The translations under genes and the position numbers were made by a program. 64,000 nucleotides of DNA from assembly GCF_900108295.1 (NCBI RefSeq), contig NZ_FNWK01000005.1, positions 124,001 to 188,000 on the forward strand, given 5' to 3'. This document shows positions 32 through 12,980 of the stretch, in pieces. The stretch is from Sphingopyxis sp. YR583 (GTDB taxonomy: Bacteria > Pseudomonadota > Alphaproteobacteria > Sphingomonadales > Sphingomonadaceae). The notes under the pieces are model-generated. The model saw only the letters and a program-made list of their open reading frames with translations, did no database searches and had not been told where the DNA came from. The stretch's first letter is position 1. Each line of letters opens with the position of its first letter.

Positions 32-2515
32 TCATTTTGCCGCAGGCGGGCAAGGCAGATTTTCGCCGACCGCCTCGACATTCGTATTCAGCAGCGTCGC
101 GGCGAACCCCTTGTCGCTCGCGATTGAGGCGGCATAGTCGACCTGTCGCAGATTGGCGCCCGCGTCGGCGAAGCAGCGCAGCGGCACCTTGATCGTCGCA
201 ACCTGTCCCTTGGGCGCCGCCTTGACCAGCGCCGAGATGTCGAACGCCTTGCCGCCGAGCGCGAGGCTGACCGGCGCGCTGCCGATCGCATCGATCCGCC
301 AGTCGACGCGCAGCGCGAAACTGTTGTTGAGCTGGCGCGACAGGTCGGCATAGGGGCCGGTCAATTCGAGTGTCGCCGGGCCGCTCCAGATGAAGGACTT
401 GCCATCCTCCTGCGCGCGCACGTCGACCGAGCGCGCCGCGATCATGCCGCCGGGGCTCGCGATCGGCGCGGATTCGACCGGGCGTTTGCCGCCCGCGTCG
501 GTGATCGAAAGCACCCACGGCGCCCGCGCGCGGCCGCCCGAGAAGAAATTCTCGACGTTCAGCGCCGCCGCGATGTCGACGCCCAACTCCTCCGAAAGCT
601 GCGGAACCGTCGTGCTCGCACCATATTTCAGACCATATCCGACCGGGAACTGCGGCTTTTCGACCGGCGAGCGCGCATCCGACGGCCAGGCGAAGGGCAG
701 CGTTCCGGTGAAGGCGCGCGGCGTTTTGCCATCCTTGCCCGCGACGAGCACATCGGCGACGCCGACACCCTGCGATCCTGGCAGCCAGCCCGCGACGAAC
801 GCGTCGGCAGCGTTGATCTCCGGATTGGTGAACATCGGGCGCCCCGACAGGAACAGAGCGACCACCGGGATACCCGCGGCCTTCAGCTTCTTGAGCGTCG
901 CAAGGTCGGTCGCCTCGGTCGGCTGATAGTCGAGCGTCGCGACATCGCCCTGAAATTCGGCATAGGGTGCCTCGCCGAACACGACGATCGCGACGTCGGG
1001 TTTTTCCTTGTACACGCCGCCATCGGACAAGGTCGCGACACCGCCCGCATCGCGCACCGACTTGTTCAGCGCCTCCCAGATCGTCTGACCGTTCGGGAAA
1101 TCGTCGTGGGTGACATCGGTCCCCTGCCAACTGATCGTCCAGCCGCCCGACTGGATAGCCATGCTGTCGGCCGCGGGGCCGGTGACGAGGACGCGTGCGC
1201 CGGGCTTGATCGGCAGCACGCTGCCATTATTCTTGAGCAGGACGAGCGACTTCGCGACCGCTTCGCGCGCGACCGCAAGATGGTCCGGCGAGCCCACTGG
1301 CTTGACGATGCTGCGATCGACATGCCCCTCGGGGAACAGGCCGAGCTTGTACTTCACGCGCAGGATACGGCGCACCGCATCGTCGAGCCGCGCCGCCGAT
1401 ATGGTGCCGTCCTTCGCATGTTTCAGCGTGCTCTCGTACAGCCCCTTCCAGCTGTCGGGCGCCATGAACATATCCAGCCCGGCATTGATCGATTGCGCGC
1501 AATCGGTGACGCTGCATCCCGCAACCTGTCCGTGCCCGTTCCAGTCGCCGACAACAAAGCCCTCAAAGCCCATTTTCTGCTTGAGGGCGTCGGTCAGCAG
1601 CCCCTTGTTGCCGTGGTGCTTGATGCCCTGCCAGCTCGAAAAGCTGGCCATCACGGTCAGCGCGCCCGCATCGATCGCGGCGGGATAGCCCATCGCGTGT
1701 TTCGCAATCAGTTCCTTTTCGTCGATCCTGGCATCGCCCTGATCCTTGCCCTCGAACGTCCCGCCATCGGCAAGGAAATGCTTCGCCGTCGCAGCGACAT
1801 GCTGCGGACCAACGGTCTTGCCCGCGACCAGCCGCCCCTGCAGCCCGATCACCATCGCCTTGGCATATTCGGCGATCAGCTTGGGATCGGCGGCATAGCC
1901 TTCATAGCTGCGGCCCCAGCGCAGATCCTGCGGCACCGCCAGGGTCGGGGCAAAGGTCCATTCAATCCCGCTCCCGGCGATTTCGGCGGCCGTCACGGCG
2001 CCGATGCGCTGGATCAGCTCGGGATCGCGCGCGGCGCCAAGGCCGATATTGTGCGGGAACAGCGTCGCGCCGGGGATATTATTGTGGCCGTGGACGGCAT
2101 CGACGCCGAAGATGATCGGGATCGCGACGCCGTTCGCCTGCGGGCGCAGCGACACCGCGCGAAATTCGCCGACCAGCTTCGCCCAGTCCGCCGCGCTCGA
2201 TCGCTCGTTGCCGTTCGGGCCGCTGTTGCCGCCCGCAAGGATCGAACCGAGCGGATAGGTTTCCAGATCCTTGGGCGTAATCGTGCTGATATCGCCCTGA
2301 ACCAGCTGGCCGACCTTTTGCTCGATCGTCATCTTTTTGATCAAGGCATCGATCCGCGCCTCGGTCTTGGGATCGGAGATCGCAGCAGGGCTTTTGGCGG
2401 CCGGCCATAGCTCGGGATGAACCGCGGCGGCATCGGCTCCGGTGGTTTCGGGTGCCGCCATCGCGGTTCCCGCCAAAAGCAGCGCAGTCGCCATGACCAT
2501 TGCCTGTCGGCGCAT
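32..2515 (-). CDS. Glycoside hydrolase family 3 beta-glucosidase-type enzyme (exported)
   Basis: An 827-residue GH3 enzyme, likely releasing terminal glucose from beta-glucosides in the periplasm or outside the cell. I chose the ATG at 2515 over the ATG at 2560 because a GGGAGAG ribosome site sits just before it and the protein then opens with a signal peptide (MRRQAMVMATALLLAGTAMA). Family signatures include GVDAVHGHNN near residue 140, KHF near 246, and the nucleophile motif V-G-D-W with Asp at about 324. The acid/base and C-terminal beta-sandwich region extends to the end; length fits ExoP-like bacterial exo-beta-glucosidases. It is the last gene of the LacI/TonB locus but has its own promoter with the locus operator. 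Exact substrate is inferred, not shown. Confidence 0.92.
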   Translation of the reverse strand: MRRQAMVMATALLLAGTAMAAPETTGADAAAVHPELWPAAKSPAAISDPKTEARIDALIKKMTIEQKVGQLVQGDISTITPKDLETYPLGSILAGGNSGPNGNERSSAADWAKLVGEFRAVSLRPQANGVAIPIIFGVDAVHGHNNIPGATLFPHNIGLGAARDPELIQRIGAVTAAEIAGSGIEWTFAPTLAVPQDLRWGRSYEGYAADPKLIAEYAKAMVIGLQGRLVAGKTVGPQHVAATAKHFLADGGTFEGKDQGDARIDEKELIAKHAMGYPAAIDAGALTVMASFSSWQGIKHHGNKGLLTDALKQKMGFEGFVVGDWNGHGQVAGCSVTDCAQSINAGLDMFMAPDSWKGLYESTLKHAKDGTISAARLDDAVRRILRVKYKLGLFPEGHVDRSIVKPVGSPDHLAVAREAVAKSLVLLKNNGSVLPIKPGARVLVTGPAADSMAIQSGGWTISWQGTDVTHDDFPNGQTIWEALNKSVRDAGGVATLSDGGVYKEKPDVAIVVFGEAPYAEFQGDVATLDYQPTEATDLATLKKLKAAGIPVVALFLSGRPMFTNPEINAADAFVAGWLPGSQGVGVADVLVAGKDGKTPRAFTGTLPFAWPSDARSPVEKPQFPVGYGLKYGASTTVPQLSEELGVDIAAALNVENFFSGGRARAPWVLSITDAGGKRPVESAPIASPGGMIAARSVDVRAQEDGKSFIWSGPATLELTGPYADLSRQLNNSFALRVDWRIDAIGSAPVSLALGGKAFDISALVKAAPKGQVATIKVPLRCFADAGANLRQVDYAASIASDKGFAATLLNTNVEAVGENLPCPPAAK

Positions 2516-2560
2516 CGTCTCTCCCATCATCCTAATGTGCATCGCTCTAATGCGCAGCAC

Positions 2561-2578
2561 TTAATGTGAACGTTATCA
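2561..2578 (-). promoter_or_regulatory. LacI-type operator upstream of the GH3 gene
   Basis: The plus strand reads TTAATGTGAACGTTATCA; on the coding strand this is TGATAACGTTCACATTAA, an imperfect palindrome around a central CG as expected for LacI-family sites. Seventeen of these bases (2561-2577) recur exactly at 12939-12955, in front of the TonB receptor, and in both places the element starts 46 bp upstream of the start codon. A LacI-type gene lies between them. That it is the operator of that protein is inference. Confidence 0.7.
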
Positions 2579-2634
2579 AGATTCCGTTTCGCACAGCGAC
2601 CGAGTGAAATCAAGCGCGCTGTTTTCAGTTTATG

Positions 2635-3831
2635 TCAGCGCCGCCGCGGCATCGTCGCGAGCAACAGCACCGCGATGGCAGAGAGCGCGGCGAGTAACAG
2701 GAAAAGCGCGTCGAAACCAAAGCCTGGGACGAGCGAGATCGTCAGCCAGGGCATGATCAACGACGGCATCGTGTTGGTGAGGTTGAAGATGCCAAGGTCG
2801 CGCCCGCGCCGGTCGGACCGCGGCAGGATGCGGAGCGTCTGGCCGCTATGAAGCGACAGGAACACCGCCGACGCGATTCCAAAGACGAGGTAGCTCGCCT
2901 TGGCCGCGTCGAGCCCGCTCGCCAGCGCCATCCCGACCATCCCAAGGCTCGAGATCGCCGCCGCAGCAACCAGCGGCACAAAGGGCCGGTCGTTGCGGTC
3001 GGCCCAGCGGCCGCCCGCCAACGCGATCGGGATCGCGATCGTCAGCGCCATGCCGAACAATCGCGCCTTTTCATTGTCGTGCATCGTGGGATCGATCGAA
3101 CGGAACCAGAAATAGAGATAGGCGAACAGCGCCGCCTCGGCGATCTGGACGAGCAGGCGCGCAAACCACATCCGCACCGCCGGACCCGTTGGACGTCGCA
3201 GCCGATCGCCAGGTGCTTGCGCCGACGGCGGCGCGGTGAGTTCCGGGAAGGCGCGCGGACGGCCGAGCAACAACACAGGCAGAACCGCGCCCGCCACCAG
3301 CAGCGCGATGACCATCAGCCGCTGTTCCGCCGACACCAGCCCCGGCCAGGTTACAAGCCATCCCGACCAGCCGCCGAGTGCTGGCGAAAAGGCGAGCAGC
3401 CCGCCGAGCAGCCCTTTCTGTTCGTCGGGAACACAATCGCCCGCCCATGCCGCGAGCGGTCCGAGCATCATGTTGAGTGTGAGCTGCCAAGCGATGATGA
3501 TCGCAACCAGCGACCAGATATCATGCGCCAGCGGAACAACCAGCAGCAAGGCGATCGTCAGGACCAGCCCGGTCGATATCCATCCCCGCCGGTTGCCGGT
3601 GCGATCGCTGAACCAGCCGAAAATGATGCCGCCCGCGCTCGCCGCAATCGCGCCGAGAAAGGTGACATATCCAAGCATCTGTACGTCGGCCGCACCCGCC
3701 AGTTGGGTCATCCGCCCGGGCAGCCAGAGGGTCAGGAAGGGAACATAGGCGATCGCCCCGCCCGCCGATGCGAGCGCATAAAGCAGCAGAAAGGAAGAAG
3801 ATTGGCGGCGCGGACCTTCGGTGTCAGCCAT
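2635..3831 (-). CDS. MFS sugar-type transporter
   Basis: A 398-residue major facilitator with about 12 hydrophobic segments and the loop signature G-W-F-S-D-R-T-G-N-R-R after the second segment, the usual MFS cytoplasmic loop 2-3 motif. The ATG at 3831 is preferred over the one 42 bp upstream because it starts inside the LacI stop (ATGGCTGA, 8-bp overlap), which suggests translational coupling. Its place between the regulator and a beta-glucosidase points to uptake of the released sugar across the inner membrane. Substrate is inferred from context only. Confidence 0.85.
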   Translation of the reverse strand: MADTEGPRRQSSSFLLLYALASAGGAIAYVPFLTLWLPGRMTQLAGAADVQMLGYVTFLGAIAASAGGIIFGWFSDRTGNRRGWISTGLVLTIALLLVVPLAHDIWSLVAIIIAWQLTLNMMLGPLAAWAGDCVPDEQKGLLGGLLAFSPALGGWSGWLVTWPGLVSAEQRLMVIALLVAGAVLPVLLLGRPRAFPELTAPPSAQAPGDRLRRPTGPAVRMWFARLLVQIAEAALFAYLYFWFRSIDPTMHDNEKARLFGMALTIAIPIALAGGRWADRNDRPFVPLVAAAAISSLGMVGMALASGLDAAKASYLVFGIASAVFLSLHSGQTLRILPRSDRRGRDLGIFNLTNTMPSLIMPWLTISLVPGFGFDALFLLLAALSAIAVLLLATMPRRR

Positions 3832-4888
3832 GAACGGCGACAGGCGGCGCTGCGGTCGACCCGCGCGCGACAAGGCCGCCCTGTACGCGTGTCGGCTCGG
3901 TCGGGCGCGGGGCCCCGCGCTGCGCCGCGATGATCAGTTCGACCGCGCGCGACGCGGTCTCGGCGACCGGCTGGTCGACCGCGGTCAGCGCGGGCTGGGT
4001 AAAGCGGACGACCGGCGTGTTGTCGAAGCTGACGATCGACAATCGCCCCGGAACGTCGAGCCCCATGTCCCGCGCCACTTCAAGCGTCGCAAGCGCCATC
4101 TGGTCGCTGCTCGCGATGATTGCCGTCGGAGGATTGCCGCCGCGCAGCAACTTCTGCGCGGCAAGGGTTCCCGACGCGAAGGTGAAATCGCCCTCGACAA
4201 GCAATCCGTCGGTGGCAAGGCCTGCGGCCTCCATCTCGCCCTGCCAGCCGTCGATGCGCCAGCGGCTGAGGCTATATTCGGGCGATCCCGCGACGAAGCC
4301 GATGCGCTGGTGCCCCAGATCGATCAGGTGCCGGGTCGCGCGCCGCGCCGAGCCTTCATCATCCATCGTCAGCGCAATCCCCGCTGCGCCGCCGCGCGAT
4401 CCGATCCGCGCGAACGGAATCTTCTGCTGGTCGAGCAGGCCGACGATCAGCGGATTGTCCGAATGCGGCGGGGTCAGGATCACCCCGTCGGGCTGGAGCG
4501 CCGCGATCGCCGCGCGCAATTCGCGTTCGACATGGTCGTTGTGCGTGTCGACCAGTTCGAAGATCATTCGATAGCCATATTCGGCGCATTTCAGCATCCC
4601 GCCGAGCAGCATCTGGTCGACCCAGTCGACCCCCTGTCGTCCGCGCCAGTCGGCGATCGTGCGTTCGCGATCGTTGATCGCGAGGATCAGGTAGGATCGC
4701 GATCCGCTCATCCGCTGCGCCGCGATCGAAGGGACATAGCCAAGCTTGTCGATCGACGCCTGGACACGCTCCTTCATCTCGGGCCGGACATTGGGCTCGT
4801 TGTTGATGACGCGGCTCACCGTCTGCAGCGACACGCCCGCGTCGGCTGCAACATGCTTGATCGTAACCGACTGACGCCGACGCCCCAT
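3824..4888 (-). CDS. LacI family transcriptional regulator
   Basis: 354 residues. The N-terminus (VTIKHVAADAGVSLQTVSRV, then INNEPNVRPEMKERV) is a LacI-type helix-turn-helix plus hinge helix; the rest matches a periplasmic-binding-protein-like effector domain (for example TAIIASSDQMALATLEVARD and LSIVSFDN). Such proteins usually repress sugar genes until a sugar binds. It sits between the halogenase/receptor string and the MFS/GH3 genes, and matching candidate operators occur before the receptor and the GH3 gene. No copy of the operator was seen directly in front of this gene, so it may be expressed from read-through or a separate promoter in 4889-5000. Confidence 0.93.
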   Translation of the reverse strand: MGRRRQSVTIKHVAADAGVSLQTVSRVINNEPNVRPEMKERVQASIDKLGYVPSIAAQRMSGSRSYLILAINDRERTIADWRGRQGVDWVDQMLLGGMLKCAEYGYRMIFELVDTHNDHVERELRAAIAALQPDGVILTPPHSDNPLIVGLLDQQKIPFARIGSRGGAAGIALTMDDEGSARRATRHLIDLGHQRIGFVAGSPEYSLSRWRIDGWQGEMEAAGLATDGLLVEGDFTFASGTLAAQKLLRGGNPPTAIIASSDQMALATLEVARDMGLDVPGRLSIVSFDNTPVVRFTQPALTAVDQPVAETASRAVELIIAAQRGAPRPTEPTRVQGGLVARGSTAAPPVAVHG

Positions 4889-5000
4889 TATATTCCTTGG
4901 CCCCCTGTCTTTCCGCCATCGCTAATGACATCGCGGCGACATTGCCAGCCGCGAACCCGTTCCGCTTCCATAATTTGCCGATATTCCCGGCGCGCGATGA

Positions 5001-6500
5001 TCATGCCGCCTTCGGCTCCTCGGCACCGCAATAACGCGCGACATAGGCGTGATGCTCGGGCAGGGTCGCGACCGTCTGCGCGATATTGTCGCGGATCGAC
5101 TGGAACAGTCGTTCGACCTCATCGTCGCGCAGCTTGTCCGCGATGGGGTGATAGGATTGCGGTTCGATCCCCTGCCCCATCATCACCTGCACCCAGCTGT
5201 TCTCGGCAAATAATTCCTCATATTTCCGGAAAACGCGCCCGGTCTCCCGGAACAGCTCGATCTTCTGCTGCAGCGAGTCCGGAACCGGCATGTTCGCAAC
5301 ATGGCGCCAGAACGGGCTGTCGCGGCGGTTCGTGACCTTATAGTGCAAGACGACGAAGTCGCGGATCTGTTCGATATCGGTCCGCTGCTGGTCGTTGAAC
5401 TCCTGCGCATCGCGCTCGCTGACGCGGCCGTTCGGCATCAGGCGGATAAAACGCAGCACCGCGCGCTGGATCAGATGCACCGTCGTCGCCTCGAGCGGCT
5501 CGACAAAGCCGCCGGCCAGTCCGACGGCGACGCAGTTGCGGAACCATTGCTTGCGCCGAACCCCGCCCTTGAACTTGATGTCGAACGGCTCGATCAGCGG
5601 CTCGCCGACGCTGCCCATCAGCCGGTCATAGGCGGCGTCGCGCGACAGATAGCCGCTAGAATAGACGATGCCCGCGCCCATGCGGTGCTGGAGCGGAATG
5701 CGCCACTGCCACCCCGCATCATGCGCGATCGCCTGTGTATAGGGCTGCGGCGGCCCCAGATGCTTCGACTGCACCGCGATCGCGCTGTCGTTGGGCAGCC
5801 AGTGGCTCCAGTCCTCGAACCCCGCGTGCAGCGCGCCGTCGATCAGCAGGCCGCGAAAGCCGGTGCAGTCGACGAACATGTCGCCCTCGATACGGCGGTC
5901 GCCGTCGAGATGCAGCGCGGCGATATCGCCCGTCTCGCCATCAAGTTCGACGCGCGCGATCTTGCCCTCGACGCGCTTGCATCCGTCGGCCTCCGCCAGC
6001 TTGCGCAGATAGCGGCCATAGAGCGTCGCATCGACATGATAGGCGTAATTCATCCGCTCTTCGGGAAGATGCGCGAACTTTCCTTGCATCCCCGCGACCA
6101 GCTCGAGGCAATAGTCACTGTACGGCTGCTGATGCCCGCGCTCGCGTGCGTTGAGCCAGAAATGCTGGAAGCCCGCCGACCAGTGATCCTTGCCCGACAG
6201 GCCAAAGCTGTGGAAATAGCTGTCGCCGTCGTGTTTCCAGTTATCGAACAATATGCCGAGCTTGAAGGTCGCCTGCGTCGCGCGCATGAATTCGGGTTCG
6301 GGAATGCCGAGGATGCGGTTGAAATTGACGAGCGGCGGGATGGTCGACTCGCCGACGCCGATCGTGCCGATCTGTTCGGACTCGACCAGCGTCAGGTCGA
6401 CCGTCTTTCCCATCGTGCGCGCGATCGCCGACGCCATCATCCAGCCCGCGGTGCCGCCGCCCGCGATCACGATGCGCTGGACCGGTTTCTTGTCGCTCAT
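5001..6500 (-). CDS. Flavin-dependent tryptophan-halogenase family protein 1
   Basis: A 499-residue member of the PrnA-like family. The FAD site GGGTAGW is at residues 14-20, the conserved lysine that carries or positions the hypohalous intermediate is K80 (A-T-F-K), and W-x-W-x-I-P, the family signature that blocks monooxygenase chemistry, is at 264-269. F-V-E-P-L-E is also present. The start overlaps the JmjC-like stop by ATGA. All residues needed for halogenation appear present, but the substrate is unknown; related genes next to TonB receptors in Caulobacter-, Xanthomonas- and Sphingomonas-type bacteria are common, and some characterised members act on free indoles. A flavin reductase partner is not encoded in this window. 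Confidence 0.92.
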   Translation of the reverse strand: MSDKKPVQRIVIAGGGTAGWMMASAIARTMGKTVDLTLVESEQIGTIGVGESTIPPLVNFNRILGIPEPEFMRATQATFKLGILFDNWKHDGDSYFHSFGLSGKDHWSAGFQHFWLNARERGHQQPYSDYCLELVAGMQGKFAHLPEERMNYAYHVDATLYGRYLRKLAEADGCKRVEGKIARVELDGETGDIAALHLDGDRRIEGDMFVDCTGFRGLLIDGALHAGFEDWSHWLPNDSAIAVQSKHLGPPQPYTQAIAHDAGWQWRIPLQHRMGAGIVYSSGYLSRDAAYDRLMGSVGEPLIEPFDIKFKGGVRRKQWFRNCVAVGLAGGFVEPLEATTVHLIQRAVLRFIRLMPNGRVSERDAQEFNDQQRTDIEQIRDFVVLHYKVTNRRDSPFWRHVANMPVPDSLQQKIELFRETGRVFRKYEELFAENSWVQVMMGQGIEPQSYHPIADKLRDDEVERLFQSIRDNIAQTVATLPEHHAYVARYCGAEEPKAA

Positions 6501-7528
6501 TTACTCAAAGCCCTCAGCAAAAAGGCGCGCAGCCGTCCCGCCGTCTCGGATGTGAGCGGGGCCAGGATGCTGCGCGCGGTTTCGGGAATATGGTCGGTGA
6601 TACTGGCATCATTGTCGAAAACATAATGGTCGAACTGCTCGCGCCAGATCGCCTTGTCTTCGGGCGGCAGGTCGCGGATCGCAAGGATCGCGTGGTTGAG
6701 CGCCGCCTGCGGCTGGCCGAGCCACGCCGGCGTCCGGCGCCACCAGTAATTGACGAGGACGTTGAAAGCTTCGAGCCCCTCGACATGGTGCCACCACATC
6801 GACGGAATGAAGATCGCATCCCCGGGTTCGAGCAGGACCGTCCGCGCCTCGGCCATCGCATCGACGAAGCGCGGGTGCGCGGCAAGGTCGGGCGCGTCGA
6901 AATCGACCATGCTGACGACGCGGCCCGCGGGCGTGTTGTCGATCGGCCCCAGATAGAGGTTGCGAAACGCACTCGGCGGAAACAGCGTGAAGCGCCGCCG
7001 ACCGACCGCGCAGCAGGCGAGATTGTCAGGGAAATCATTGTGTGCCGCGATCTTGGTGCGCGTCCCGATCCAGATGCTTTTCATCGGATCGCGGTCACCG
7101 AGATCGACCCGGTTGGCCTCGTCGAGCCCGTCGAAATGCGAGGGAATGTCGATCGACGCGAGGTAGACGGTGCGGTTCTCGCCGCGTTCCTCGGCGGTAT
7201 CGATGCCGCTGAAGATGTCGGCGAGCTTGCCCGTACCGATCCGGAAATTCATTTCCATTTCGGCATCGTAGAACAGGCGTCCGTCATGCCCCGGTGGGCC
7301 GATCGACACCTTGAACGGCCGTTCGCGGGCATGATCGAGCAGGTATCGCCGCGCCGCGCGCGCCGAGCGCTTGCCGGCATCGACAAGCGGCCAGTCGGAA
7401 ACGAGGCCGCGCAGGACAAAGGGCTCGCGCGCGCCTTTCAGCAACGCGTCGAGCCCTGCCCCCTTATCCCATTCGCGCTCGGCCACGGGCGCGAGGCGAT
7501 CGTATATGCCGGGGTCGCGTTCAGCCAC
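6497..7528 (-). CDS. Cupin-like/JmjC domain protein (putative Fe(II)/2-oxoglutarate hydroxylase)
   Basis: A 343-residue protein of the FIH/JmjC-like cupin_8 type. A metal triad can be placed: H163-x-D165 in A-A-H-N-D-F and a distal His at 247 or 248 in M-W-W-H-H-V. A TTG further upstream (7555) is possible, but the GTG at 7528 overlaps the SapC stop as GTGGCTGA, the same 8-bp junction seen at other genes here. Family members hydroxylate protein or small-molecule substrates; the target is unknown. It is tightly packed between sapC and halogenase 1, so it very probably acts in the same process. Confidence 0.85.
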   Translation of the reverse strand: MAERDPGIYDRLAPVAEREWDKGAGLDALLKGAREPFVLRGLVSDWPLVDAGKRSARAARRYLLDHARERPFKVSIGPPGHDGRLFYDAEMEMNFRIGTGKLADIFSGIDTAEERGENRTVYLASIDIPSHFDGLDEANRVDLGDRDPMKSIWIGTRTKIAAHNDFPDNLACCAVGRRRFTLFPPSAFRNLYLGPIDNTPAGRVVSMVDFDAPDLAAHPRFVDAMAEARTVLLEPGDAIFIPSMWWHHVEGLEAFNVLVNYWWRRTPAWLGQPQAALNHAILAIRDLPPEDKAIWREQFDHYVFDNDASITDHIPETARSILAPLTSETAGRLRAFLLRALSK

Positions 7529-8240
7529 CGGCCAGCCTGCGGTTCTTCCGCGCAACGAGCACCGACAGTTGCGACAGCGAGGCGAGCGCCATGAACATCG
7601 GCATCAGATGCCCCGCTGCGTGCAGCGTGCCCAGCGCCTCGCCGTCCAGCGCGCGCAGTTTCGCCTCGTCGATGATGTGGAAACCGACCAGCGAATGAAG
7701 CGAGCCATCGTCGAGCGTCACCTCGAGGCTGAACGGTTCGAGCAGATCATAGGCGAGCAGTGCATCGTAGAAGGCCTTGCTCTCGCGATAGCCTTCGTCG
7801 AGGTCGCCGAGCCGTTCGGCGATGTCTTCCAGATAGGGTGTCATGGCGCCGTCGGCGTCGAACAGGCGCATCCCCTCGCCGCCTGCGGCGATACGCGGGT
7901 GGTCCATGTCGATATGGACCTGCCCCGGCCCCTCGCCGTTCGCGGCGCGACCGATCAGGAACGGCTGGATCGCCACCGACAGCGGACGATAGCGCGCGTC
8001 CCAGCGATCCCCGTCGAGGAACAGATTCTCGCGGTTCTGGAAACCGAACATCGCCAGCGCCGAAAAGTCGTCGTGTCCGGTTTCGCGGCGGAACAGGATC
8101 GGAAAATGCGCCTGCACGCGGCGGAACTCGCTCGGCACCGTTAGCGTCGCCATGATGTCGTCGCCCAGCTCCGCGCCCGCGTCGGTCCGGATGCGCAACT
8201 CGCGGTGGGTCTTGTTGTCGAGCACGGCGTGACGGGTCAT
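7521..8240 (-). CDS. SapC family protein
   Basis: A 239-residue protein matching the SapC family, named for an S-layer-associated protein of Campylobacter but with no clear biochemical role. Seen here are V-P-S-E-F-R near the N-terminus and [10 protein letters not shown] at the C-terminus. The ATG at 8240 overlaps the halogenase 2 stop by ATGA, so a longer upstream reading is rejected. No signal peptide or membrane span is evident, so it is likely cytoplasmic. Its fixed position next to tryptophan-halogenase and JmjC-like genes in TonB loci is known from related bacteria. Confidence 0.88.
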
Positions 8241-9802
8241 CGGGTTCCTTCTACTTGCCTGGCCGCGGCGAGGTCGGCCGCAAGCGCATCGAGATAAAGA
8301 CGGTTCGTTGGCAATCCGGCGGCGAGCGTGCGGGCACGCTGCCGCATCTCGGCGAGCGCTGCCTGCGCGCGCTCGCTGGCGGGCCAACCGGCGGGCGCCG
8401 GAAAGCCCATGCCATAGAGAATATATTGATGACTCTGCGCCGAGAAAATCTCGTCGACATAGGGAAAGTCCGACAGCGAGGGCGGCTGGTCGCGCCACAG
8501 TGTCAGCAGATCGGCCAGGTGTGGCGGGATATGCCCGGGGTCGCGATGCGCGCGCCAATAGGGTTCTTCGCGTCGGCTCAACACATAATGGAGCTTCAGA
8601 AATTCGATGATGCGATCCCAGCGGTAGCGGAACAGCTTGTTGAAGCGGCCGGAATGAATATCCATCGCGGCGCGATCAGCCGGGAAATTATCGGTCAGCG
8701 CGCGCAACGACAATTCGATCAGGACGATCGCCGAGGCTTCGAGCGGTTCGACGAAGCCGGCCGCAAGGCCTATCGAAATGCAATTCTTTTCCCAAAAACG
8801 CGCACGGTGGCCGGTGCGGAAGCTGATATGCTTGAACGGTGCCCCAAACGCACCTTCTTCGGGCACCGCCCCGGGCAATTCGCGCGCGATATAGTTGCGC
8901 AGGATCGCCTCCGCGCGCTCGGCGTCCATAAAGCGGCTCGAATAGACGCAGCCGATGCCGCGACGCGACGGCAAACCGATATCCCAGATCCAGCCCGCTT
9001 CATGTGCGGTGGCGATCGTCTGCGATGCGATGGGGCTGCCCGGGGGTACCGGAACCTGCGATGCGATTGCACGGTCGTTGAAGGCGTGGGCGCTCCGATC
9101 GATCCACTCGACGCCCAGTTCGCCATCGATCAGCAGGCCCTTGAAACCCGTGCAGTCGATGAAGAGGTCGCCCTCGACCTCGCGGCCGCTGCCCGTAGTC
9201 AGCGCGGCGATGTCGCCATTATCAGCCCGCCGGGCACCTGTGACATGATCGAGGATATGGGTGATACCCAGATTCTTCGTCGCGTGCGCCGACAGCAGCG
9301 CCGCGAATTTTTCCGCCGCAAAATGATAGGCATAATTGGCGGCACCCTGATAGCCGGGCATCGTCCGCTGCCGCGGCGCCAGATGAAGGTTGCAGACCGC
9401 GGCCTGCGCGCTCATCGCCGCCGCAAACGGCTGGTCGGGGGCCGACGCCTGCCAAGCCGCAAGCAGTTCACCCGTCGGAACCGCAGGCGGGGTGGTGAAG
9501 GGATGAAGGTAACTGTCGCCCGCCGAGCCGTCGACCCATCCATCGAAGCGCGAAGCCTGCTTGAACGCCCCGTCGCACGCGGCTAGGAAATCCGCTTCGT
9601 CCAGCCCGATCGTCGCCAGCGTCGTGCGCATCGTCGGCCAGGTCCCCTCGCCGACGCCGACGATGGGAACGTCGGGTGCCTCGACCAGCGTGATCGACAG
9701 CGGCGCGGCCTTCGCGCGGCGCGAACTCGCGATCAGCGACGCCGCCAGCCATCCGGCGGTGCCGCCGCCCACGATGACAACCCTCTCGACCTTGTTAGTC
9801 AT
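8237..9802 (-). CDS. Flavin-dependent tryptophan-halogenase family protein 2
   Basis: A 521-residue paralogue of halogenase 1, clearly diverged. The FAD motif GGGTAGW is at residues 12-18, the catalytic lysine is K81 (G-A-F-K), and F-V-E-P-L-E is present. The W-x-W-x-I-P signature is altered to W271-I-W273-D-I-G276: Pro is replaced by Gly, while a Pro follows two positions later. It is the first gene after the receptor, separated by a gap holding a stem-loop. Whether the altered signature still supports halogenation is unknown. It could have a different substrate or a non-halogenating role. Confidence 0.9.
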
Positions 9803-9841
9803 TGCCGTCGATCCTAGGCCAAGCTGGCGCCGTCGTCACGC

Positions 9842-9876
9842 AAAAGAGCCGCGCCCGGGAAAGACGCGACCCTTTT
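9842..9876 (-). terminator. Stem-loop between the TonB receptor and halogenase 2
   Basis: Two 12-nt arms (9842-9853 and 9865-9876) pair through G-C, A-T and two G-T wobbles around an 11-nt loop. Read on the minus strand the 3' arm ends in CTTTT, so the structure resembles a weak Rho-independent terminator. It would let the receptor be made in excess of the downstream enzymes or stabilise the receptor mRNA. Function is inferred. Confidence 0.5.
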
Positions 9877-9908
9877 GCCTGCGACCCGGCGGAAGTGGCT
9901 CATCCGCC

Positions 9909-12893
9909 TTAGAAGCTGAACCTGACCCCCGCCGCATAGCGCGCGAAGCCCGGCGACACGAAGGTCACATTATTGGGATGACGCAGATGCTTGCGCTGTC
10001 CTTCTCCGGTCAGGTTGATCGCCTCGACAAAGGCGGTCAGCCCAGGGATGAACTCATAGCTCGCGCTGGCGTCGATCTGCCAATAAGCCTCTGTGTAGGT
10101 GGGGTTGGGCCCCGTCCCCGACAGGAACTTGTCGCGCCAGTTCCACGCTACGCGCGCCTGAAGCGGTCCCTTGTCATAGAAGGCCACGGCGTTGGCCGTA
10201 TCGCTAAGCCCGACCAGTGCGAATTGCGCCACCGTCGACGGTAGTGCATTATCGTACGTCGCATCGCCATTGACGATCGTATAGTTCAGGATCACGCCGA
10301 AGCCCGTATCCCAGAAGCTATGCTGGAGCGCGAACTCCCAACCGTTGAGCGACGCGGTCTGGTCGCTGTTCACCGGCGTCGTGATCTCGAAATTGACCAG
10401 CGGATCGCCGGGCGCGGCGTTGATGATATTGCCCGTGACCGTGCCCGGGAAATTGGTGATGATATATTGGCGGATCTGCGCAACGGTCGCGTTCGGGCCG
10501 AGCGCCGCCACCGCAGCGTTCCAGCGCGGCCCTTCGACGGGCGTCGTCAGTCCGAACGCGCTGCTGTCGATGCGCGTCGAGGATATGAAGTTGCTCACAT
10601 CCTTATGGAAATAGCCCGCGGAAATATAGCTGTCGCGCGCGTAATACCATTCCGCCGACAGGTCGATATTCTTCGACTTGTACGGGATCAGGCCGGGATT
10701 CCCCTGTGCGCCCCCGCCCCCGCCGACGCGGAACAGCGTGTCGATCGTCCGTCCGCCCTGCATCAGGTCATAGCTCGGACGCGCAATCGTGTGGCTGTAC
10801 GACGCGCGCAGCTTCACATCCTGCATCGGCGAGATGTCGAAATCGATCGCGGGCAGCCAATTGTCGTAGGAGCCCTTGAAGCGCGTGAAATCGCTGTCGC
10901 CCGAAAAGACGACATTGAATTCATTGTCGCCCACCCAGGTCGTGGTGACGGGAACCGGCACCAGCGCCGACGAGGCGATGTCGGTCGTTTCATATCGGAT
11001 ACCCGCGACAAGATGCGCCGGATTCTCGAACAGGTCGAACACTGTCGCGACCTGCAGATAGGGCGCCAGCGTCTTTTCGGAGATGCGCCGGTCGGTATTG
11101 AAATTCGCAAGGCAGGTGCCGGGCTGCGCCGACCCCGTCGCCGGGTTGCTGCAAGTCTGGAAATTCTGTTCGACCAGATCCGCCATCCGCGCGAAATCGA
11201 AGCTGTAGAAGCTCTGGATCATGCCCGGCTGCGCAAGGCCCGGGAATTTGTCCGGCAGGGTGACCAGCGTGAAGATGTCGTCCGGAATGCTCGATGCCGG
11301 GCCCGCGCCGCTCCACGTATCGTCGTTCTGGATCGTACCGAACGCCGATCGCACCTTGCTGTCGACGAAGGACACACCGAAATCGATGCTGTCGAGGAAG
11401 CCGCCGTCATGGTCATATTGACCGCGCAGCTGCACCTGGTTGATCCGGTTCCGGAATATGGCGTTGCGGAAGGCGTTGCCGGTGGGGGTGATCAGCGCCG
11501 TGTTCAGCGGATCGATACCGGGGTACATTCCATAGGAAATGACCGGCATGTCGTTTTCGAAATTGATCGTCTGGTTCTGGACGCCGAATACGGCATTGCC
11601 CAGCGACATGCTCGACCCGAAGCGATTGACGGGATTCACCGCCGCCGTCGAGTGATGGCCGTCGAGTTCGAAAGTGACGCCGCCGGGCCCGTTCCATTCC
11701 AGATTGACGCCGAGCGATTTATTCTCTGCGCGGTTTTCGGTCAGCGCCCCGCTATAGGACAGATCCTTGCCGCCATAGAGCGCGTTCGGCCCGGGGACGC
11801 CGGTGGGCGCCGCGAAGCGTTCGGTGTAGAACAGCGGCCCGGCAACCGGGCCATCGGTCCATGCACTCGACGTATCTTCATGGTTGAACCACACGCCGAC
11901 GTTGCTGTTCCGCGTTTCGACGGTGTTGCGCGCATAGGTGTAATCGATCGTCGCGGTAAACGCGTCGCTCGGGCGGAATTGCAAAACCGCCTGCCCGTTG
12001 ATGCGCTCGCGATTGATGTCGTTGAGATCGTAGGACGCATTCTGCGGCACCTGATAGACGTCGGTCGGATCGGGCCGGTTGGTGATGTTCGCCGCGCGGG
12101 GCGTTCCCGGCTGCGCCAGCGAACCCCAATTGTTCTCGCTGCCCAGATAGCCGTCGCGCCAGCCGACATTGGCCGTGTTTTCGCTCGATTTGCGCTTCTG
12201 ATACGACCCGGTGATCAGGATACCGATCGTATCATTCGCAAAGGTCGTGCTCAGAATGCCCGACACTTCGGGCGTGATCGGATTGCCTTCGTTGCGCGAC
12301 GAGTCATAGACGCCCTTGACCGAAAGGCTGCCACGCAGCCCCGGCTTGTCGAGCGGACGCGGCGTGCGAAGGTTGATGACCGAACCGATGCCGCCCGATT
12401 CCATCGTGACGCGGCCGCTCTTATATACCTCGACCCCGGCGACGCCTTCCGACGCGATATTGTCGAAGTCGAACGAGCGCGATGACGGGGCATTGTCGCC
12501 GCCGCCGATGAGCGCGGTCGGCATCTGGCGACCGTTGAGCGTCACCAGGTTGAATTCGGGACCGAAGCCGCGGACGGTGACAAGCGAGCCTTCGCCATTC
12601 GAACGGTCGATCGACACGCCCGTGATGCGCTGCAGCGATTCGGCGAGGTTGGTGTCGGGGAATTTGCCGATGTCTTCGGCCGAGATCGCGTCGACGACAC
12701 CCTGCGCCTCGCGCTTGATATCGGCCGATGCGGCAAGGCTGGCGCGGATACCCGTCACGACGATCTCGTCGCCGCCCGCTTCGCCGTCTACCGGCGCCTC
12801 CTGCGCGACCGCAACCTGCGCCATGCCCATCATGGACAGCGCCGAAGTCCCGGCCAGAAATTTGGCAAGCCACTGCTTTTGAGACGCCCGCAT
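9909..12893 (-). CDS. TonB-dependent outer membrane receptor
   Basis: A 994-residue receptor with a signal peptide (cleavage likely after A-V-A near residue 30), a TonB box-like D-E-I-V-V-T-G, a plug domain (D-I-G-K-F-P-D-T-N-L-A-E-S-L-Q-R) and a long beta-barrel ending in the outer-membrane F-S-F terminus. GGGAGAAACGGGG precedes the ATG. It belongs to the large Caulobacter/Sphingomonas class of receptors linked to carbohydrate loci. It is the first gene of the minus-strand cluster and its promoter carries two candidate LacI sites. The likely cargo is a glucoside or oligosaccharide, judged only by the GH3 enzyme and MFS transporter. Confidence 0.95.
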   Translation of the reverse strand: MRASQKQWLAKFLAGTSALSMMGMAQVAVAQEAPVDGEAGGDEIVVTGIRASLAASADIKREAQGVVDAISAEDIGKFPDTNLAESLQRITGVSIDRSNGEGSLVTVRGFGPEFNLVTLNGRQMPTALIGGGDNAPSSRSFDFDNIASEGVAGVEVYKSGRVTMESGGIGSVINLRTPRPLDKPGLRGSLSVKGVYDSSRNEGNPITPEVSGILSTTFANDTIGILITGSYQKRKSSENTANVGWRDGYLGSENNWGSLAQPGTPRAANITNRPDPTDVYQVPQNASYDLNDINRERINGQAVLQFRPSDAFTATIDYTYARNTVETRNSNVGVWFNHEDTSSAWTDGPVAGPLFYTERFAAPTGVPGPNALYGGKDLSYSGALTENRAENKSLGVNLEWNGPGGVTFELDGHHSTAAVNPVNRFGSSMSLGNAVFGVQNQTINFENDMPVISYGMYPGIDPLNTALITPTGNAFRNAIFRNRINQVQLRGQYDHDGGFLDSIDFGVSFVDSKVRSAFGTIQNDDTWSGAGPASSIPDDIFTLVTLPDKFPGLAQPGMIQSFYSFDFARMADLVEQNFQTCSNPATGSAQPGTCLANFNTDRRISEKTLAPYLQVATVFDLFENPAHLVAGIRYETTDIASSALVPVPVTTTWVGDNEFNVVFSGDSDFTRFKGSYDNWLPAIDFDISPMQDVKLRASYSHTIARPSYDLMQGGRTIDTLFRVGGGGGAQGNPGLIPYKSKNIDLSAEWYYARDSYISAGYFHKDVSNFISSTRIDSSAFGLTTPVEGPRWNAAVAALGPNATVAQIRQYIITNFPGTVTGNIINAAPGDPLVNFEITTPVNSDQTASLNGWEFALQHSFWDTGFGVILNYTIVNGDATYDNALPSTVAQFALVGLSDTANAVAFYDKGPLQARVAWNWRDKFLSGTGPNPTYTEAYWQIDASASYEFIPGLTAFVEAINLTGEGQRKHLRHPNNVTFVSPGFARYAAGVRFSF

Positions 12894-12938
12894 CCCCGTT
12901 TCTCCCAGATCAACCGCTCTTTTACCGGCGGCATTCGC

Positions 12939-12980
12939 TTAATGTGAACGTTATCTAAATGGGAACGTTATCATTGTCAA
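12939..12980 (-). promoter_or_regulatory. Promoter with two LacI-type operators for the TonB receptor
   Basis: On the minus strand the bases read TTGACA (12980-12975), a 17-bp spacer, then TAGATA (12957-12952), a near-consensus housekeeping promoter. One GATAACGTTCCC site lies inside the spacer, and a second, GATAACGTTCACATTAA, runs from the -10 hexamer downstream. Bases 12939-12955 are identical to 2561-2577. Occupation of either site would block RNA polymerase, so repression by the local LacI protein is the natural reading. It starts 46 bp upstream of the receptor ATG. Confidence 0.75.

Follow-up and report, generated by a model that had tools for sequence, protein, structure and literature searches.

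CUT loci of Xanthomonas and Caulobacter combine a TonB receptor, a regulator, an inner-membrane transporter and a glycosidase. A locus with these components, into which four further genes are set, was analysed here in a 64,000-nucleotide stretch of the Sphingopyxis sp. YR583 genome (positions 124,001 to 188,000 of contig NZ_FNWK01000005.1; "the window" refers to this whole stretch). Eight co-directional genes on the minus strand encode, in this order, a TonB receptor, the halogenase-like protein TH1, a SapC family protein, a cupin, the halogenase TH2, a LacI-family regulator, an MFS transporter and a GH3 glucosidase, as read from the open reading frames, the sequence itself and Pfam and NCBIfam profiles. 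TH1, SapC, the cupin and TH2 are referred to below as the module. The name SapC originates from the S-layer of Campylobacter; to our knowledge no function has been established for the family (PF07277), of which the window protein is a full-length member.

BrvH and Xcc4156, flavin-dependent halogenases of the TH2 type, are the proteins of PDB entries 6frl and 6y1w respectively (PMC7336383, excerpt). BrvH prefers bromide, does not act on free tryptophan and brominates free indole weakly; in the excerpted text its authors doubt that indole is the natural substrate, judge the activity too low for that, and remark on space for larger substrates (PMC5945002). The Xanthomonas enzymes halogenate free indoles in vitro and not free tryptophan, and the native substrates of BrvH and three Xanthomonas enzymes are there reported as unknown (PMC7336383, excerpt). 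QhpG, a flavoprotein whose structure resembles those of halogenases dependent on flavin adenine dinucleotide (FAD), dihydroxylates a tryptophan within a polypeptide in the cytoplasm, before export, according to the excerpt of PMC7876137.

From gene neighbourhoods and motifs we tentatively favour a reading in which the module enzymes would halogenate and hydroxylate the receptor as a cytoplasmic precursor, which SapC would handle; this is a serious possibility which falls somewhat short of probable. The conservation of the module behind its receptor was assessed from several samples. The window genome (4.31 Mb) was covered by profile searches and by an operator-site search. In a panel of 99 genomes of the same order, Sphingomonadales, SapC was found in 56 and the halogenase family PF04820 scored above cut-off in 68. 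Sixty SapC loci of this panel were fetched and examined together with that of the window; a halogenase stands in the same run as SapC in 33 of these 61, a biased share since loci with a halogenase nearby were taken first. In 32 of the 33 the receptor lies directly upstream on the same strand (the exception is L120; loci and genomes carry L and G numbers). Outside the order, 9 of the 40 SapC loci fetched are modules, and a receptor stands upstream in all nine.

A TH2-based scan of named alpha-, beta- and gammaproteobacterial genomes kept the best 80 of 591 relatives, the closest named one among them being that of Sphingopyxis sp. Root154 (L209, 95% identity); because only these 80 were kept, the set is skewed to close relatives of TH2. 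Seven of these loci are cut by a contig end and the other 73 form the denominator used here, with gaps of up to 1300 bp allowed within a run. The receptor is in the same run in 67/73 and at most 400 bp away in 61, the cupin is found in 66/73 and SapC in 63/73. The full order receptor-TH1-SapC-cupin-TH2 is kept in 48 of the 73; genera that have it include Sphingopyxis, Sphingomonas, Massilia, Duganella and Rubrivivax, and also Alteromonas, Shewanella, Colwellia and Pseudoxanthomonas; since the same gene order recurs in beta- and gammaproteobacteria, chance is excluded. The preliminary description of this DNA had proposed that the enzyme genes act as one module tied to the receptor, and strong and broad co-occurrence, within the order, outside it and in the TH2 set, bears this out; neither do the enzyme genes lie apart from the receptor in most relatives, given the 67 loci of 73 which hold both in one run.

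Within genomes the association is similarly close. TH1 and TH2 are the only PF04820 matches in the whole window genome, and one of its 14 TIGR01782-type receptors above cut-off carries the module. Four genomes were searched for both families; of their 23 halogenase matches, 22 share a run with an adjacent TIGR01782-type receptor, whichever strand it is on, and the remaining one, in G047, was not located. Scanning ten neighbour proteins of receptors lacking the module returned GH43, a phytase, a phosphatase, ROK kinases, a GntR regulator, an LtrA protein and similar, and no halogenase or SapC among these ten. The enzyme genes are tightly packed, with a median gap of 11 bp and 256 of 297 gaps at most 40 bp. 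Furthermore, the pairwise distances of receptors correlate with those of SapC (0.88), the cupin (0.80) and TH2 (0.91) across 30 modules (permutation p 0.0005 each), a correlation to which shared ancestry contributes.

Some loci depart from the common arrangement. Two modules stand in tandem in Teredinibacter waterburyi (L273), reading receptor-TH-SapC-cupin-TH and then receptor-SapC-cupin-TH, and L287 has TH2 on one strand and its receptor, SapC and cupin on the other. In the draft genomes of L212 and L218 the receptor match is spread over two frames. A tetratricopeptide-repeat sulfotransferase gene, possibly for another modifying enzyme, precedes the receptor on the same strand in L063 (L063:306-1871), with a similar gene in L064.

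Where the cupin is present the architectures are receptor-SapC-cupin-TH2, receptor-TH1-SapC-cupin-TH2 and receptor-SapC-TH2-TH1-cupin. A cupin-less architecture consists of receptor-SapC-TH1 and a third kind of halogenase, as the second halogenase of seven loci that lack the cupin, itself weakly TH2-like, is classed here (242-265 bits, vs at least 515 for TH2, which was called by score). Halogenase loci without SapC also exist beside receptors, a receptor being found in 17 of the 19 such loci fetched. On this classification, and with each of several related sequences counted, 30 of 41 SapC modules carry TH2 together with the cupin and the other 11 lack the two, so that neither occurs alone in these 41. 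Of the 37 Cupin_8 matches of at least 197 bits in the order panel, at least 32 have a listed halogenase no more than 3 kb away (compared by eye). TH2 and the cupin pair closely, not strictly.

The enzymes look active, as judged by their intact catalytic motifs. By pattern, the catalytic lysine is present in 58/59 module halogenases and PLE[AS] in 59/59, and both window halogenases have the GGGTAGW motif for FAD. The W.W.I core of WxWxIP is found in 55/59 and reads WQWRIP in TH2 and WIWDIG in TH1. TH2, whose closest solved relatives are Xcc4156 (6y1w), 9luq and BrvH (6frl), also keeps GxGxxG, Lys80 and the glutamate motif; those nearest to TH1 are 9ltb and 2pyx. The HxD..H iron triad is present, by pattern, in 30/30 module cupins, and FIH and JmjC proteins, JMJD5 among them, are the solved structures closest in sequence to the window cupin. 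Neither halogenase reaches the cut-off of the QhpG equivalog NF049967 (37.5 and 34.3 bits, cut-off 240 bits).

By eye, TH1, SapC, the cupin and TH2 lack a signal sequence and the receptor has one; therefore the receptor, if it is the substrate, must be modified before export. In the proposed mechanism SapC would bind the receptor precursor in the cytoplasm, where TH1, and TH2 together with the cupin, would halogenate or hydroxylate one or a few side chains before Sec export. The natural first candidate residue would be tryptophan, and for the cupin asparagine or aspartate. After insertion of the modified receptor into the outer membrane, its ligand binding, its stability, or resistance to receptor-using phage or bacteriocins might be tuned by the change. 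QhpG may be taken, by analogy and from what the excerpt describes, as a precedent for such tailoring.

A candidate target residue can be named in the receptor. Trp335 is present in 104 of 107 module receptors (the exceptions have Y, F and Y), in 1/19 module-free receptors and in 2/20 receptors with halogenases but without SapC. In the receptor model (predicted local distance difference test score, pLDDT, 85.2) it ends strand 312-335; as this strand begins at a two-residue turn, loop lengths place Trp335 probably at the outer face of the barrel. No residue cleanly separates module from non-module receptors, Trp335 being the best; nor did any column differ by more than 0.55 when receptors that have TH1 were set against those that lack it, for nine residue types. 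Receptors linked to halogenases are also richer in tryptophan, at 14.2 and 13.6 per 1000 vs 9.5 (p 0.06 and 0.02 after thinning at 40% identity). Both the conservation of Trp335 and the enrichment are suggestive only.

The gap which follows the receptor gene folds strongly, with z below -2 against mononucleotide shuffles in 91 of 96 module loci; with dinucleotide shuffles z was -4.55 for the window, -6.31 for L075 and -3.39 for L063. The terminator scan of the window did not list this hairpin. Such a hairpin between receptor and enzyme genes would fit an abundant receptor and scarce enzyme.

SapC itself is predicted with confidence by AlphaFold2, and no solved structural relative was found. 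A protein-database search with it listed nothing beyond close SapC homologues and was taken no further; PMC4911050, considered as a paper on SapC, was rejected, "SapCa" in the excerpt being a clay. The neighbours of SapC in 11 of the 31 non-module loci of the phylum panel speak for receptor tailoring: they are another TonB receptor, RTX or two-partner-secretion proteins, or export genes of the SecA-like or efflux/type-I-like kinds. In L174, L178, L195, L198, L200, L202 and L119, which lack halogenases, SapC has RTX, two-partner-secretion or YDG-repeat giant proteins next to it. A second kind of SapC locus, with an FAD-linked oxidase as neighbour, is recurrent within the family (L087-L097 and L118), one such locus lying in the window genome (L090, G000:C2:376510-395166).

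Several observations weigh against tailoring of the receptor. SapC also stands beside the FAD-linked oxidase in 13 loci of the order (by similarity to L089), and elsewhere beside AcrB/FGGY, GGDEF and other genes without a link to export. Five of the 73 TH2 genes have neither module nor receptor (L247, L272, L284, L285, L288). In the wider set the pairing of TH2 with the cupin fails at L261 and L270, whose TH2 lacks a cupin, and at L273, whose second module joins the cupin to a weaker halogenase; the case for receptor tailoring never rested on strict pairing. The hairpin statistic covers module receptors only. A 34-leaf clade (support 0.69) contains 31 module receptors, and L144, a module-free receptor inside that clade, also has Trp335, while the module exceptions keep Y or F; since module receptors cluster and L144 shares the tryptophan, Trp335 may simply mark the clade. 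The enrichment is confounded by the module-free GH43-linked L147 and its tree neighbours and by the ROK-linked L162, with 11-14 tryptophans per 1000. Sec export would leave little time for modification in the cytoplasm, and BrvH, as the excerpt of PMC5945002 records, does brominate free indole, if weakly. Both the modification and its target residue are putative.

The preliminary description had also suggested the aglycone of a plant glycoside as what the module modifies. A GH3 match is present in the fetched stretch of 16 of 32 order modules, three of these being partial; with one representative scanned per gene group, other modules stand with GH20, a glucokinase and an amidohydrolase whose context suggests a NagA-like enzyme, with GH67 and a mandelate-racemase-type enzyme, with GH9, or with a nucleoside symporter. 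The module stays behind the receptor whatever the sugar. Because the sugar genes differ between modules, an aglycone as common substrate is weakened, and since a shared aglycone for glucan, chitin and glucuronoxylan loci is improbable, the aglycone idea is unlikely and that part of the suggestion was given up. More broadly, the enzymes could act on a small molecule imported by the receptor, an aromatic aglycone or an indole from a glycoside, in a detoxifying or catabolic step. The GH3, MFS and LacI genes of the operon are in its favour, as is the acceptance of free indoles, and not free tryptophan, by BrvH and the Xanthomonas enzymes (PMC5945002, PMC7336383, excerpts). However, it leaves SapC and the close pairing of cupin and TH2 unexplained, the module keeps its place by the receptor although the sugar genes around it differ, chitin and xylan share no aglycone, and the indole activity of BrvH is too low for a natural substrate in its authors' own excerpted judgement (PMC5945002); we therefore regard it as rather unlikely, although the least so of the alternatives. 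Between the receptor and free indole as substrate, the genomic evidence leans towards the receptor.

It is also conceivable, if less likely again, that the module makes a halogenated signal, a siderophore-like ligand or a peptide-derived product which the receptor recognises or imports: two halogenases and a hydroxylase resemble tailoring enzymes and adjacency to a receptor would suit them, but the module itself showed no gene that would form a scaffold (short conserved peptides outside it were not searched), and because the gaps between enzyme genes are so tight there is little room for a precursor peptide gene. The flavin and 2-oxoglutarate proteins might instead not halogenate at all, being oxygenases, or sensors of redox state or oxygen which adjust receptor expression or folding. 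The weak QhpG matches of both halogenases and the WIWDIG which replaces WxWxIP in TH1 point this way; the halogenase lysine and PLE motif are, however, almost invariant, and halogenation of indoles in vitro is described for the related BrvH and Xanthomonas enzymes (PMC5945002, PMC7336383, excerpts), so that such a role appears improbable, a little more so than a self-made ligand. Least likely of all is passive co-inheritance, in which enzymes of separate functions travel with receptor genes in mobile operons. TIGR01782-type receptors are numerous and 13/14 above cut-off in the window genome lack the module, as this would allow; the five-gene order in 48/73 of the loci from the best 80 of 591, the overlaps or tight gaps, the hairpin at a constant place and the close pairing of TH2 with the cupin all speak against it.

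The features of the locus are collected in Table 1. Reading from the sequence, TH1 and SapC overlap by 4 bp, SapC and the cupin by 8 bp, the cupin and TH2 by 4 bp and LacI and MFS by 8 bp; eight same-strand genes with four overlaps of 4 or 8 bp and matching operators at both ends, as initially described, were all confirmed. The extent first given to the locus, 2515..12980, stood in its upper part and not at its lower coordinate, since the GH3 gene continues to 32.

Table 1. Features of the receptor-module locus, in window positions
Feature	Position	Strand	Basis and details
Two LacI-family operator-like sites, GATAACGTTCCCATT and GATAACGTTCACATTAAG, upstream of receptor	12938..12980	-	sequence search
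TonB-dependent receptor, Xanth-Caul type	12893-9909	-	994 aa; TIGR01782, 617.9 bits; signal-like N-terminus by eye
Strong intercistronic RNA hairpin, receptor/enzyme-gene gap	9815..9911	-	-54.1 kcal/mol, z -4.55 vs dinucleotide shuffles
TH1, flavin-dependent halogenase-like	9802-8237	-	521 aa; PF04820, 386 bits; no signal peptide by eye
SapC family protein	8240-7521	-	239 aa; PF07277, 213 bits, profile 1-219 of 220
FIH/JmjC-like cupin	7528-6497	-	343 aa; PF13621 Cupin_8, 220 bits; HxD...H iron site kept
TH2, Xcc4156/BrvH-type flavin-dependent halogenase	6500-5001	-	499 aa; PF04820, 605 bits
LacI-family regulator	4888-3824	-	Pfam, NCBIfam
MFS transporter	3831-2635	-	Pfam
LacI-family operator-like site upstream of GH3	2560..2577	-	sequence search
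GH3 glucosidase (Exop_C domain)	ATG 2515 to end 32	-	export-signal-like start by eye

Within the 64-kb window the operator-like sequence GATAACGTTCACATTAAG is found twice, once at 12938-12955 and once at 2560-2577, each time on the minus strand. With at most one mismatch, GATAACGTTCNCATT matches 4 sites in the 4.31-Mb genome vs 0 for the reversed control; three of the four fall inside this locus, and the fourth ends 22 bp upstream of the ATG of an unlinked GH5 (glucanase-type) gene whose product has a signal-like start (G000:C2:536390; L205:1501-1515, ATG 1538). Because this sole extra operator match precedes a GH5 glucanase, the regulon would be one of beta-glucan or glucoside use, and it looks like a LacI-family repressor governs it, the site pattern being observed and induction and regulation inferred. 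AACGTT-centred sites also precede the receptor in the relatives L072, L075, L077 and L078, and were not detected at this position in most of the other, more distant module loci tested. A simple promoter scan (2 found vs 2.4 expected) was not used. The glucoside or beta-glucan setting with LacI-type operators, proposed at the outset, is upheld by the matches at the receptor, GH3 and GH5 genes.

Extended to all such loci, the proposal becomes that of a widespread proteobacterial system in which sugar receptors would be halogenated and hydroxylated as precursors by their operon partners, with SapC as the client-binding factor; in this wider form it is more doubtful than for the window receptor, while still possible. 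If true, this would establish a new type of modification for outer-membrane proteins; the natural substrate of BrvH/Xcc4156-type halogenases would be named and the SapC family would gain a role. Bacteria would then halogenate a major class of surface protein, with consequences for nutrient uptake, the entry of phage and bacteriocins, and protein-labelling enzymes. No description of the halogenase/SapC/cupin/TonB combination was found in the open-licence literature, so its novelty is unproven.

Compared with the described systems, TH2 aligns end to end with Xcc4156 (6y1w) and BrvH (6frl), with E values of 2e-183 and 3e-136. In the excerpts those two were studied as free enzymes on indoles, whereas the partnership with receptor, SapC and cupin is that of the TH2 in the window. 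The cupin aligns with FIH at both iron-ligand motifs (AHND/AHYD and WWHH; E 1e-16), and JMJD5 is a further such relative; only about 110 residues align with FIH, however, and the window cupin is bacterial and linked to a receptor. In the alignment an arginine of the cupin takes the place of the FIH lysine, which we take to be 2-oxoglutarate-binding. With QhpG/QhpC, of cysteine tryptophylquinone biogenesis, the module would share a halogenase-like flavoprotein which oxidises a peptidyl tryptophan before export. As the excerpt describes it, that system differs in having a small single subunit, crosslinks and ABC export, and in sequence the match is 34-38 bits vs 240; neither SapC nor a cupin is mentioned with it in the excerpt of PMC7876137. 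Finally, the window locus matches the CUT loci in that genes for a receptor, a regulator, a transporter and a glycosidase stand in one place and operator sites are shared, and differs from them by the four-gene halogenase/SapC/cupin module which stands between the receptor and the regulator.

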